From positions 248,001 through 312,000 of the forward strand of contig NZ_NEGH01000003.1 of assembly GCF_002135375.1 (NCBI RefSeq): a stretch of 64,000 bases of DNA, in the 5' to 3' direction. The notes below the pieces were generated by a model. The model saw only the letters and a program-made list of their open reading frames with translations. It made no database searches and was not told the DNA's origin. The stretch is from Acinetobacter sp. ANC 4558 (lineage in GTDB: Bacteria > Pseudomonadota > Gammaproteobacteria > Pseudomonadales > Moraxellaceae). The position numbers and the translations under genes are program-made. Positions 45,347 to 48,088 of the stretch are shown here, piece by piece (the stretch's first letter is position 1; each line of letters opens with the position of its first letter).

Positions 45347-46588
45347 CTAAATTGGAATTTTTTTAAAAATTTCTTGTCCTATGATTGCTGCAGTTGCAGC
45401 CGCCAGTGTCCAACCTAAATGCCCATGCCCTGTATTATAAAAAATGCGTTTTCTCTTGCCTTGTTTCATCACTGGCATCATATTCGGCATCATAGGTCTT
45501 AAACCTGCCCAAGGTACAACATGTTCAGTACATATATCAAAATGTCTGTTGGTCCAATCAATCAATGGTTGAATACGATCTGCTCGAATATCTCGATTAT
45601 AACCATTAAATTCAGCAGTTCCTGCAACTCTAAAGCGATGCATACCTAAGCGTGAAGCGACAATTTTACTGCTCTCATCTAATAAGCTCACCCAAGGCGT
45701 ATTTTTTATCGAACGTTCATCATTAATATTCACTGTGATTGAATAGCCTTTTACAGGATAAACATTAATGCGATCTCCTAGCATATTTGCCAACTGATAA
45801 CTCCCCACACCAGCACATACTAAAATAGCATCAGCAGAGATTTTTTCATCGCCAAAATCTGTTCTGATATTTTCTTTACTATGTCGGTAAATCAATTCAA
45901 TGCCATGCTCATAATGTTGAACAGTTAAAGCTTCTGTACCAAATAAAAATTTCACGCCTTTGTCTTTACAAACTCCGGCCAAACCTACGGTAAATTTATG
46001 AATATCTCCAGTTGCATCTGCGGGGCAGTAAAATCCTCCGAAATATTCCTCCGTCAATGTAGGTTCAATACTTTTAATTTCTTGTGGTGATACTGCATAT
46101 CGTTCTAAACCACTTTGGGTTAATAATTGATTTACTCGTATGGCGTCATCATAGTCATGTTGATTATGATAAAAATGTAAAATTCCTCTTTTTTCTAAAT
46201 TAAATTCAATATTTTCTTGTGTTGCAATTTCAAATAACCGATTTCTTGCCATCAATGCCAAGCGAACTGTTTCTCGAGTATTCATTTCATAATTTTTAAT
46301 CTGACCTAAAAATTCCATTAGCCATGTATACTTATGCACACTAAAAGAAGGATTGAGCAATAAGGGTGCAGATTTTTGCGACATCCATTTAATGCCCTTA
46401 AATACGGTCGATTTTTGATTCCAAACCTCCGCATTACACGCAGACAATTGTCCACCATTTGCAAATGAAGTTTCCATTGCTGGATATAAATGTTTATCTA
46501 AAACTGTGACTTGATAACCTAAATTAATCAACTCATACGCAGATGTGACACCCGTAATGCCTGCACCAATGATAATAATATGTGACAT
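45347..46588 (-). CDS. dadA: D-amino-acid dehydrogenase/glycine oxidase-type FAD enzyme
   Basis: A 413-residue FAD-dependent deaminating oxidoreductase. The dinucleotide motif is IIIGAGITGVTSAYELINLG. The block TSFANGGQLS and the C-terminal VPWAGLRPMMPNMMP and GHGHLGWTLA are typical of DadA. I use the ATG at 46588, which has AGGGAG 5 bases upstream. DadA oxidises D-amino acids to oxo acids at the inner membrane. Its leader carries a tandem glycine riboswitch, so glycine, or an amino acid made from it, is the likely controlling signal and perhaps a substrate. That step is inference. Confidence 0.85.
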   Translation of the reverse strand: MSHIIIIGAGITGVTSAYELINLGYQVTVLDKHLYPAMETSFANGGQLSACNAEVWNQKSTVFKGIKWMSQKSAPLLLNPSFSVHKYTWLMEFLGQIKNYEMNTRETVRLALMARNRLFEIATQENIEFNLEKRGILHFYHNQHDYDDAIRVNQLLTQSGLERYAVSPQEIKSIEPTLTEEYFGGFYCPADATGDIHKFTVGLAGVCKDKGVKFLFGTEALTVQHYEHGIELIYRHSKENIRTDFGDEKISADAILVCAGVGSYQLANMLGDRINVYPVKGYSITVNINDERSIKNTPWVSLLDESSKIVASRLGMHRFRVAGTAEFNGYNRDIRADRIQPLIDWTNRHFDICTEHVVPWAGLRPMMPNMMPVMKQGKRKRIFYNTGHGHLGWTLAAATAAIIGQEIFKKIPI

Positions 46589-46627
46589 AAACACTCCCTA
46601 AGAATATTTTATATTCTTGTGTTTACC

Positions 46628-46797
46628 CCATCTGTCATTGTTACCTGAGAGCTTCGATTAAACTTAATCATTTAACCTTCCCCTTCGGTGAGTATAAAAA
46701 ATACTTCTCTCCAGATTTTTGAATTATTACAGTCCTTTTGCCTGAGAGTTTCCGGGGCTGTTGCTCCTTCGGCGAACACTATTGTGTTTCTCTCCTG
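46628..46797 (-). ncRNA. Tandem glycine riboswitch
   Basis: Two consecutive glycine aptamers read on the minus strand. The first (about 46797 to 46731) has GGAGAGA, GCCGAAGGAGCAA and CTCTCAGGCAAAAGGACTG. The second (about 46714 to 46628) has GGAGAGA, CACCGAAGGGGAAGG and CTCTCAGGTAACAATGACAG. These are the conserved gcvT-type blocks in the right order, separated by a short linker. It ends about 40 bases before the dadA-type gene, so it controls that gene. In bacteria such riboswitches usually turn on glycine use or export when glycine is abundant. Confidence 0.93.
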
Positions 46798-46821
46798 CAA
46801 TAATTGCTTATTTGTTTTATT

Positions 46822-46849
46822 ATGCAAAAAACATTCCAGTTTTTTGCAT
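46822..46849. repeat. 11-bp inverted repeat upstream of the riboswitch
   Basis: A perfect stem ATGCAAAAAAC / GTTTTTTGCAT with a 6-base loop. It lies downstream of rodA and just upstream of the riboswitch transcript. It could be a rodA terminator, though the T-run sits in the stem, or a regulator site at the dadA promoter. Confidence 0.55.
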
Positions 46850-46939
46850 TTTACTCAATGTTTGTACTTATTCAATGACTATGCCAGATATTCAATTTTT
46901 TTAAAACTTTTTTATCATGTAGTACTTTTAATTTCATAC

Positions 46940-48088
46940 TTAGCGATGCGTATGAATAGACATTACAATTCCCATACTTGCCAAGAGTACAATCACAGCC
47001 GTTCCGCCATAACTCATTAAAGGCAAAGGATCTCCTGTCACAGGTAAAATTCCGCTCACCATACCTGAATTCAGAAAAACAAAGAAAAAGAATGTTAAGC
47101 CTGTTGCACCAGCAAACAAACGACCGAAATTATGAAAACAGTTCATTCCAATCATTAAACAACGAATAATAATGGCTGCAAATAAACTGATAAGTAAAAA
47201 TACGCCAACAAAACCAAACTCCTCAGCATAAGTTGACATGATAAAATCAGTATGATGTTCAGGCAAATATCCCAAATGAGATTGTGTTCCCTCTGTGAAA
47301 CCTTTTCCAACTACACCACCAGAACCAATGGCAATTTTAGATTGAATAATATTCCAACCTGCTCCCAAGGCATCAGATTCTGGATCAAATAAAGTTAATA
47401 CACGCTTTTTTTGATATTCTTGCAAAACAAACATCCAGAGCACAGGCGCAATAATTGCAAAACCAGTTAACGCACCTAAAATTAATCGCCAAGACATTCC
47501 GCTTAAAAATAAAACAAAGATTCCTGGAATAATTAAACCAATATTTAAATCGGGTTGTAATGCCACCAAAATAAAAGGAATCATCATCAGTAGAAATGCA
47601 ATAACAATATGCATAAATTTAGGTGGAAATGGCTTTAATGAAAAATACCATGCCATCATTAAAGGCATAGCAAATTTCATAAACTCACTGGGTTGCATAC
47701 TTCCAATAGCAGGTAAACTAATCCATCGCTTCGCGCCTAACCGCTTTTCGCCAATGACCAGCACTAATAATAGAAGTAATGTTGCAATGAGATATAAATA
47801 TGGTGCTAAAGATTGATAAACTTTAGGCGGAATTTGTGCACAAATAAATAATGCAATAAATCCGACCCCAAAACTAATGGATTGGCGAATGAGCATACCC
47901 GAATCTTCTGCTGTCGCACTATAGACAACCATTAAACCTAAAATTGAATTCAAGATTAAAAAGCATAAAAGCCATGGATCTAAATGTAGCTTTGCCCATC
48001 TGCTTGGCACATCACTTTTCATGCTTCTACCATCACGCAATGCATGACGTAAAAAACGATACTGCTGGGAAGGTATCATTTCATTCAA
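46940..48088 (-). CDS. mrdB: Peptidoglycan polymerase RodA (SEDS family)
   Basis: A 382-residue SEDS membrane protein with about ten helices. It has the block LMVVYSATAEDSG near residue 52, then LQPDLNIGLIIPGIFVLFLSG. The C-terminal region includes the PEHHTDFIMSTYAEEFGFVG motif and LPVTGDPLPLMSYGGTA, both diagnostic of SEDS proteins. RodA polymerises glycan strands with PBP2 during elongation. The alternative FtsW is less likely because of the shorter N-terminus and the absence of division genes directly next to it. No mrdA gene adjoins it in the window. Confidence 0.92.
   Translation of the reverse strand: MNEMIPSQQYRFLRHALRDGRSMKSDVPSRWAKLHLDPWLLCFLILNSILGLMVVYSATAEDSGMLIRQSISFGVGFIALFICAQIPPKVYQSLAPYLYLIATLLLLLVLVIGEKRLGAKRWISLPAIGSMQPSEFMKFAMPLMMAWYFSLKPFPPKFMHIVIAFLLMMIPFILVALQPDLNIGLIIPGIFVLFLSGMSWRLILGALTGFAIIAPVLWMFVLQEYQKKRVLTLFDPESDALGAGWNIIQSKIAIGSGGVVGKGFTEGTQSHLGYLPEHHTDFIMSTYAEEFGFVGVFLLISLFAAIIIRCLMIGMNCFHNFGRLFAGATGLTFFFFVFLNSGMVSGILPVTGDPLPLMSYGGTAVIVLLASMGIVMSIHTHR

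Follow-up and report, generated by a model that had tools for sequence, protein, structure and literature searches.

A tandem glycine riboswitch heads the gene of a proposed flavin-dependent glycine dehydrogenase in Acinetobacter and other Pseudomonadota

Introduction

Glycine riboswitches in front of gcv genes and of transporter genes are already known (PMC3766115, PMC6944388), and twelve target families of glycine metabolism have been counted (PMC3766115). In Acinetobacter sp. ANC 4558 a tandem glycine riboswitch is located in front of a gene whose protein family is labeled "D-amino acid dehydrogenase". This raises the question of what a glycine sensor controls at such a gene, and which substrate the encoded enzyme might have. 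A stretch of 64,000 nucleotides (the window, to which all positions refer unless a locus is named) and related loci from other genomes were analyzed computationally.

Results

Two aptamers in front of one gene

A sequence-only reading had placed a tandem glycine riboswitch at 46588-46797 and had named the Rfam model RF00504 as a means to check it. Two regions on the minus strand indeed scored above the gathering score of 32, i.e., the 5′ aptamer (aptamer 1, 46720-46807) with 71.1 bits (model positions 1-94, E 7.6e-13 for the whole window) and the 3′ aptamer (aptamer 2, 46622-46724) with 57.6 bits (model positions 1-94). It was thus confirmed that a tandem glycine riboswitch precedes the enzyme gene, which starts with the ATG at 46588. 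The interval given earlier drops 10 nt of the 5′ end of aptamer 1, and the distance to the gene start had to be corrected from about 40 bases to 33 nt, measured from the end of aptamer 2 to the ATG. A cmscan analysis of the window listed aptamer 1 alone, probably because the two matches overlap by 5 nt. An absence of aptamer 2 was rejected, as it was found in an RF00504 search of the whole 3.66-Mb genome, which revealed no glycine riboswitch besides these two.

The two aptamers share a single expression platform ahead of the gene start. In the predicted fold, the platform (46589-46621, minus strand) forms a hairpin immediately 5′ of the Shine-Dalgarno sequence AGGGAG (46594-46599, minus strand), and an outer stem closes on the start region. 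The predicted leader fold was more stable than shuffled sequences (z -3.97; none of 200 shuffles was as stable), and both aptamer folds could be recognized in it by eye.

The enzyme is neither the classical DadA nor ThiO

The gene at 45347-46588 on the minus strand encodes a FAD-dependent oxidoreductase of 413 amino acids, as deduced from the open reading frame, NCBIfam, and Pfam, and a function as a glyoxylate-forming glycine dehydrogenase is proposed for it here. Against NCBIfam NF009074 (PRK12409, the family with the label "D-amino acid dehydrogenase") residues 1-412 scored 698.3 bits, above the curated equivalog cut-off of 494 bits, and the Pfam DAO domain PF01266 scored 219.3 bits. The enzyme stayed below the cut-offs for the classical DadA (NF001933/PRK00711, 326.8 versus 383 bits) and for ThiO (TIGR02352, 118.2 versus 250.8 bits). 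DadA of E. coli exhibited the opposite pattern, with 755.2 bits for NF001933 and 274.8 bits for NF009074. That the gene is simply the ordinary DadA or ThiO of the organism was rejected, because both are encoded separately elsewhere in the genome, DadA with 427.3 bits (over the cut-off; L004) and ThiO with 252.9 bits (L005).

In a phylogenetic tree with 77 rows, all 64 NF009074 proteins were separated from the remaining rows by a branch with 100/100 support. The other rows were two DadA proteins, four ThiO proteins, and seven DadA-like proteins below the cut-off; the positions of the DadA and ThiO rows within the tree are unsure because of their long branches. One locus (L227) was left out of the tree and also of the search for partner genes described below. 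The enzyme is therefore neither a classical DadA nor a ThiO, and NF009074 constitutes a separate clade. A firm grouping with D-alanine-specific DadA would have spoken against the sequence-only reading; the score below the NF001933 cut-off and the separate branching of the NF009074 rows show that this is not the case.

A structural model of the enzyme was obtained with a mean pLDDT of 78.3. Its best matches in the PDB were glycine oxidases (7cyx, 4ysh; TM 0.68-0.73, 16-18% identity); further enzymes with this fold ranked next. The predicted structure is consistent with glycine as the substrate, without proving it. The neighbors of the gene in the window encode a SIMPL-family protein and RodA, and an alanine racemase is not among them.

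The riboswitch and the enzyme gene are linked throughout the Pseudomonadota

The best 80 of 561 protein relatives in the genome_contigs collection were analyzed for riboswitches upstream of their genes. All but one of the 80 originated from Acinetobacter, the remaining one from another member of the Moraxellaceae. A match to R1, a riboswitch model built in this analysis, was present just upstream of the gene at 77 of these 80 loci, and sequences from 11 of these 77 had gone into the model. The three loci without a match were L019, L036, and L085, and a weak match of 30.4 bits was obtained at L073. Nine related DadA or ThiO loci below the NF009074 cut-off were all devoid of an R1 match.

Among 293 genomes drawn from the Pseudomonadales, 14 from outside of Acinetobacter encoded a protein over the NF009074 cut-off, and RF00504 was found upstream of the gene in all 14. 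The same was true for 16 of 17 further genomes detected among 398 that were drawn from the whole phylum, so that in other genera RF00504 preceded 30 of 31 family genes. The single exception (L158 in genome G707) is located behind an amino-acid permease gene, and no R1 aptamer was detected in 12 kb around it. One of the 31 genes (L144 in genome G511) is interrupted by a stop codon.

Plasmid-borne relatives were also found: 339 records matched the window protein (P0001), and 65 matched an Aminobacter copy at a stricter E-value. Nineteen copies, picked for high score, annotation, and spread, were fetched, and RF00504 was present upstream of every one. Six of the 19 were scored, all of them over the NF009074 cut-off, and the 18 that were included in the tree all fell within the clade. 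Three Cupriavidus records (L213, L226, L227) had RF00504 ahead of the family gene. On one Paraburkholderia plasmid a SAM-I/IV riboswitch (L225, 2929-3034, minus strand) adjoins the glycine riboswitch on the opposite strand. The linkage of riboswitch and enzyme gene thus recurs across the Pseudomonadota, and the same pairing in many related bacteria suggests that the enzyme serves to burn glycine.

In Acinetobacter the enzyme alternates with the glycine cleavage system

A gcvP match was absent from the window genome, whereas the same search was positive in 10 of 14 control genomes. In addition, 149 Acinetobacter genomes were compared. RF00504 was found in 127 of them, NF009074 in 126, and a full gcvP in only five. 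Riboswitch and enzyme gene occurred together in 122 genomes, the riboswitch alone in five, the gene alone in four, and 18 genomes had neither; the search filters can lose weak RF00504 matches, and the status of a few genomes was inferred from gaps in the result lists. The 127 riboswitch-bearing genomes comprised the 122 with the enzyme gene, four with gcv only, and one (G127) in which the riboswitch precedes a remnant that matches residues 1-47 of the enzyme (L165, 4770-4380, minus strand).

Each of the five gcvP-bearing genomes (L160-L164) has a glycine riboswitch in front of a gcvH-gcvP-gcvT operon, and NF009074 is missing from four of them. The exception, G139, combines the two systems, with gcv behind one riboswitch and NF009074 together with a malate synthase gene behind another. 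It contains a further NF009074 copy without a glycine riboswitch (L173, 5118-6410, plus strand). The mutual exclusion of gcvP and the enzyme in Acinetobacter had a Fisher p of 0.002, a value that ignores kinship and depends on five gcvP genomes; the five GcvP proteins are 96-99% identical, and the exclusion therefore perhaps reflects a single event. Outside of Acinetobacter, a full gcvP and the enzyme were found together in 18 of the 31 genomes, which shows that the enzyme does not strictly replace the gcv system. In one genome from outside the genus (G649; L198, 11850-5415, minus strand) the enzyme gene follows gcvP, and two aptamer pairs are arranged in series, one ahead of each gene.

Partner genes connect the enzyme with threonine, glyoxylate, and malate

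In four Acinetobacter genomes a malate synthase G gene directly follows a riboswitch-headed copy of the enzyme gene; one of the four proteins was scored (1204.9 bits with NF002825), the others were assigned by similarity. On an Aminobacter plasmid and a Mesorhizobium plasmid a row of enzyme gene, malate synthase G gene, and a gene for a small HbpS-like protein was found. On two plasmids, one from Agrobacterium and one from Paraburkholderia, the enzyme gene is followed by kbl and tdh on the same strand; in L200 kbl was present on the same strand ahead of the enzyme gene, and in L220 close by on the other strand. A clustering of gene neighbors revealed no partner gene cluster in more than four of the 31 loci of other genera (at four of the 31 the gene was masked by a longer frame overlapping it and gave no row), and the argument for a pathway therefore rests on a minority of the copies. 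The window genome also has a malate synthase G gene.

Threonine is converted to glycine and acetyl-CoA by Tdh and Kbl, and malate synthase G joins glyoxylate and acetyl-CoA to malate. The pieces of the various operons fit to one route from threonine via glycine and glyoxylate to malate, in which the enzyme would close the gap between glycine and glyoxylate.

Several further observations were made at these loci. The small HbpS-like gene, annotated as "heme-binding", recurs behind the enzyme gene on rhizobial plasmids (L208, 8640-9071; L209, 6331-6762; L210, 8567-8998; L217, 6882-7313; L220, 4778-5209). Broken malate synthase G matches lie directly behind the enzyme gene on two Sinorhizobium plasmids (L217, 4790-6824; L221, 4809-5812), and in one further genome a malate synthase G fragment is retained at this place (L195, 4904-4571). 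Beside one malate-synthase-linked copy a further glycine aptamer (L081, 1894-1558, minus strand) heads a short stretch that weakly resembles the two ends of the enzyme (residues 1-72 with E 1e-4, residues 372-410 with E 2e-5) and represents a decayed copy of its gene. Another glycine aptamer (L166, 7719-8307, plus strand) precedes an open frame of 118 amino acids; that this frame is a decayed enzyme copy was rejected, as no similarity was found (E 0.98).

The direction of the switch and a sigma-54-like promoter element

Glycine riboswitches that control gcv have a more conserved aptamer 1, a pattern that has been related to ON switches (PMC6944388). The mean pairwise identity over 75 leaders was 83% for aptamer 1 versus 58% for aptamer 2 (L019, L036, L073, and L085 were left out, as were L029 and L043, which were missed by the pattern), and the present switch would thus also be expected to act as an ON switch. 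No terminator-like site was found in 46500-46950, and the platform hairpin ends at the Shine-Dalgarno sequence, which together suggest that control is probably exerted at translation. Folding predictions for 77 leaders did not reveal a consistent direction; on average, the Shine-Dalgarno sequence was unpaired to 0.60 with and 0.63 without aptamer 2.

Sigma-54 promoters have the consensus GG-N10-GC at -24/-12, with TGGCAY and TTGCW as the surrounding sequences. A sigma-54-like -24/-12 element (TGGAATGTTTTTTGCA; 46823-46838, minus strand) was detected by motif score ahead of the leader. Such an element, scoring 5-7 of 7, was present in 74 of 77 Acinetobacter leaders including that of the window, and at the same score in 2 of 231 control windows (this count did not include L019, L036, L085, or a further locus whose upstream stretch was short). 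In 64 of the 77 leaders it was located 24-29 nt before the core of aptamer 1, i.e., the consensus was found at a steady distance. The element was likewise located ahead of the five gcv riboswitches; of three second-copy operons examined, all but L168 were preceded by it. Among 49 non-Acinetobacter leaders a single one (L122) scored at least 5, and its element is at a different distance. The window genome contains rpoN. Judged from these motifs, a sigma-54 promoter immediately in front of aptamer 1 is probably the start point of transcription in Acinetobacter.

Discussion

The results are best explained by a glycine riboswitch that controls a glycine-oxidizing, FAD-dependent DAO-fold enzyme, which took over the role of gcv in Acinetobacter; on the basis of the sequence comparisons this explanation as a whole is regarded as probable. 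Abundant glycine would be bound by the aptamers and would turn on expression of the enzyme, most likely at the level of translation. The enzyme would most likely convert glycine to glyoxylate and ammonia, and would hand the electrons to the respiratory chain rather than to oxygen. Glyoxylate could then be joined with acetyl-CoA to malate by malate synthase G. In Acinetobacter the enzyme would stand in for the glycine cleavage system, which is absent from nearly all members of the genus. The earlier proposal that the enzyme oxidizes glycine or a glycine product, and not only D-alanine, gains support from the comparison of genomes, i.e., from the conserved linkage, from gcv behind the same riboswitch, and from the operon partners.

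The family label would be correct if the enzyme were a true D-amino acid dehydrogenase that acts on D-alanine. At high concentrations glycine is misincorporated in place of D-alanine into peptidoglycan, and an OFF switch could spare D-alanine under these conditions. Folding is compatible with an OFF switch, as the platform can put the start region into a stem in the predicted fold. However, the genome already has a classical DadA over the cut-off (L004), the neighbors in the window are the SIMPL-family protein and RodA instead of an alanine racemase, and the operon partners, where present, are malate synthase G or the glycine-forming kbl-tdh. In addition, a gcv operon is located behind the riboswitch in five relatives, and conservation is higher in aptamer 1, which is also true of gcv-type switches. 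An OFF switch for D-alanine is therefore considered improbable. Slightly less improbable, but still unlikely, is an enzyme that acts on an N-substituted glycine (sarcosine, iminodiacetate, a glyphosate-like or an opine-type compound) or on another small amino acid and yields glycine or glyoxylate, with glycine as a proxy signal. Sarcosine, dimethylglycine, and iminodiacetate oxidases belong to the fold family, and a similarly annotated glyphosate oxidoreductase family has been described (PMC12452685). But it would be surprising to find a glycine-producing enzyme controlled by a switch that glycine turns on, two operons already contain kbl-tdh as a supply of glycine, and the fact that the enzyme alternates with gcv favors glycine itself as the substrate.

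The riboswitch might also be a relic or hitchhiker that does not control the enzyme gene. Four of the 126 NF009074-bearing Acinetobacter genomes are devoid of RF00504, as is the L173 copy, and in G127 the riboswitch heads nothing but a gene remnant. Yet this explanation seems very improbable in view of RF00504, which precedes all but one of the 31 family genes from other genera, and of R1 matches at 77 of the 80 genome_contigs loci (the best 80 of 561). The control of a glycine-oxidizing enzyme by the riboswitch thus remains the preferred explanation.

Compared with known systems, the locus resembles the tandem RF00504 riboswitches of gcv operons in that both aptamers are above the cut-off, aptamer 1 is more conserved, and a control of glycine disposal is proposed. 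It differs in that it precedes a flavoenzyme gene and has no terminator-like site, so that it is probably translational. A connection of a glycine riboswitch with glyoxylate use is shared with SAR11/Pelagibacter, where a riboswitch is located at the malate synthase gene glcB (PMC2211319, PMC5069720); there glcB itself is controlled, whereas here it would be the step from glycine to glyoxylate, in some copies with glcB in the operon. With ThiO (TIGR02352) the enzyme has in common the DAO fold, the proposed oxidation of glycine, and glycine oxidases as best structural matches, but it is below the cut-off, belongs to a separate clade, and coexists with a ThiO of the organism. DadA (NF001933/PRK00711) is the nearest annotated relative and has a similar length, but again the score is below the cut-off, the clade is separate, SIMPL and RodA are the neighbors, and the genome has its own DadA.

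Glycine oxidation by DadA6 of Cupriavidus necator reportedly goes back to Claassens 2020. This protein, also named "D-amino acid dehydrogenase", is cited in the context of engineered strains and their oxidation of glycine (PMC12421819), and the activity proposed here therefore has a precedent. The likeness concerns the label and the activity, which is credited for DadA6 and proposed for the window enzyme. A full-text literature search found neither the linkage of the riboswitch with NF009074 nor any pairing of "glycine riboswitch" with "D-amino acid dehydrogenase"; supplementary tables lay outside of this search, and an earlier listing there is possible.

In a wider sense, flavin-dependent glycine dehydrogenases that are mislabeled as D-amino acid dehydrogenases could represent a third main class of glycine riboswitch targets throughout the phylum, in addition to gcv and glycine transporters. 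They would direct glycine via glyoxylate to malate and would replace gcv in Acinetobacter, where a sigma-54 promoter and an ON switch would act on the same gene. This generalization appears reasonably likely.

Sigma-54 is often a factor of nitrogen control. If the -24/-12 element is real, glycine disposal in Acinetobacter would be wired to sigma-54, whichever enzyme does the job. The results provide a testable function for a large family of enzymes that probably bears an incorrect name in the databases. The proposed enzyme would explain how glycine is disposed of in Acinetobacter, to which hospital pathogens belong and in which 144 of 149 genomes are without a full gcvP. Besides gcv and transporters, glycine riboswitches would then also have an oxidative route via glyoxylate among their targets. 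Taken together, the findings also bear on engineered carbon assimilation via glycine, from which such an enzyme would divert glycine.
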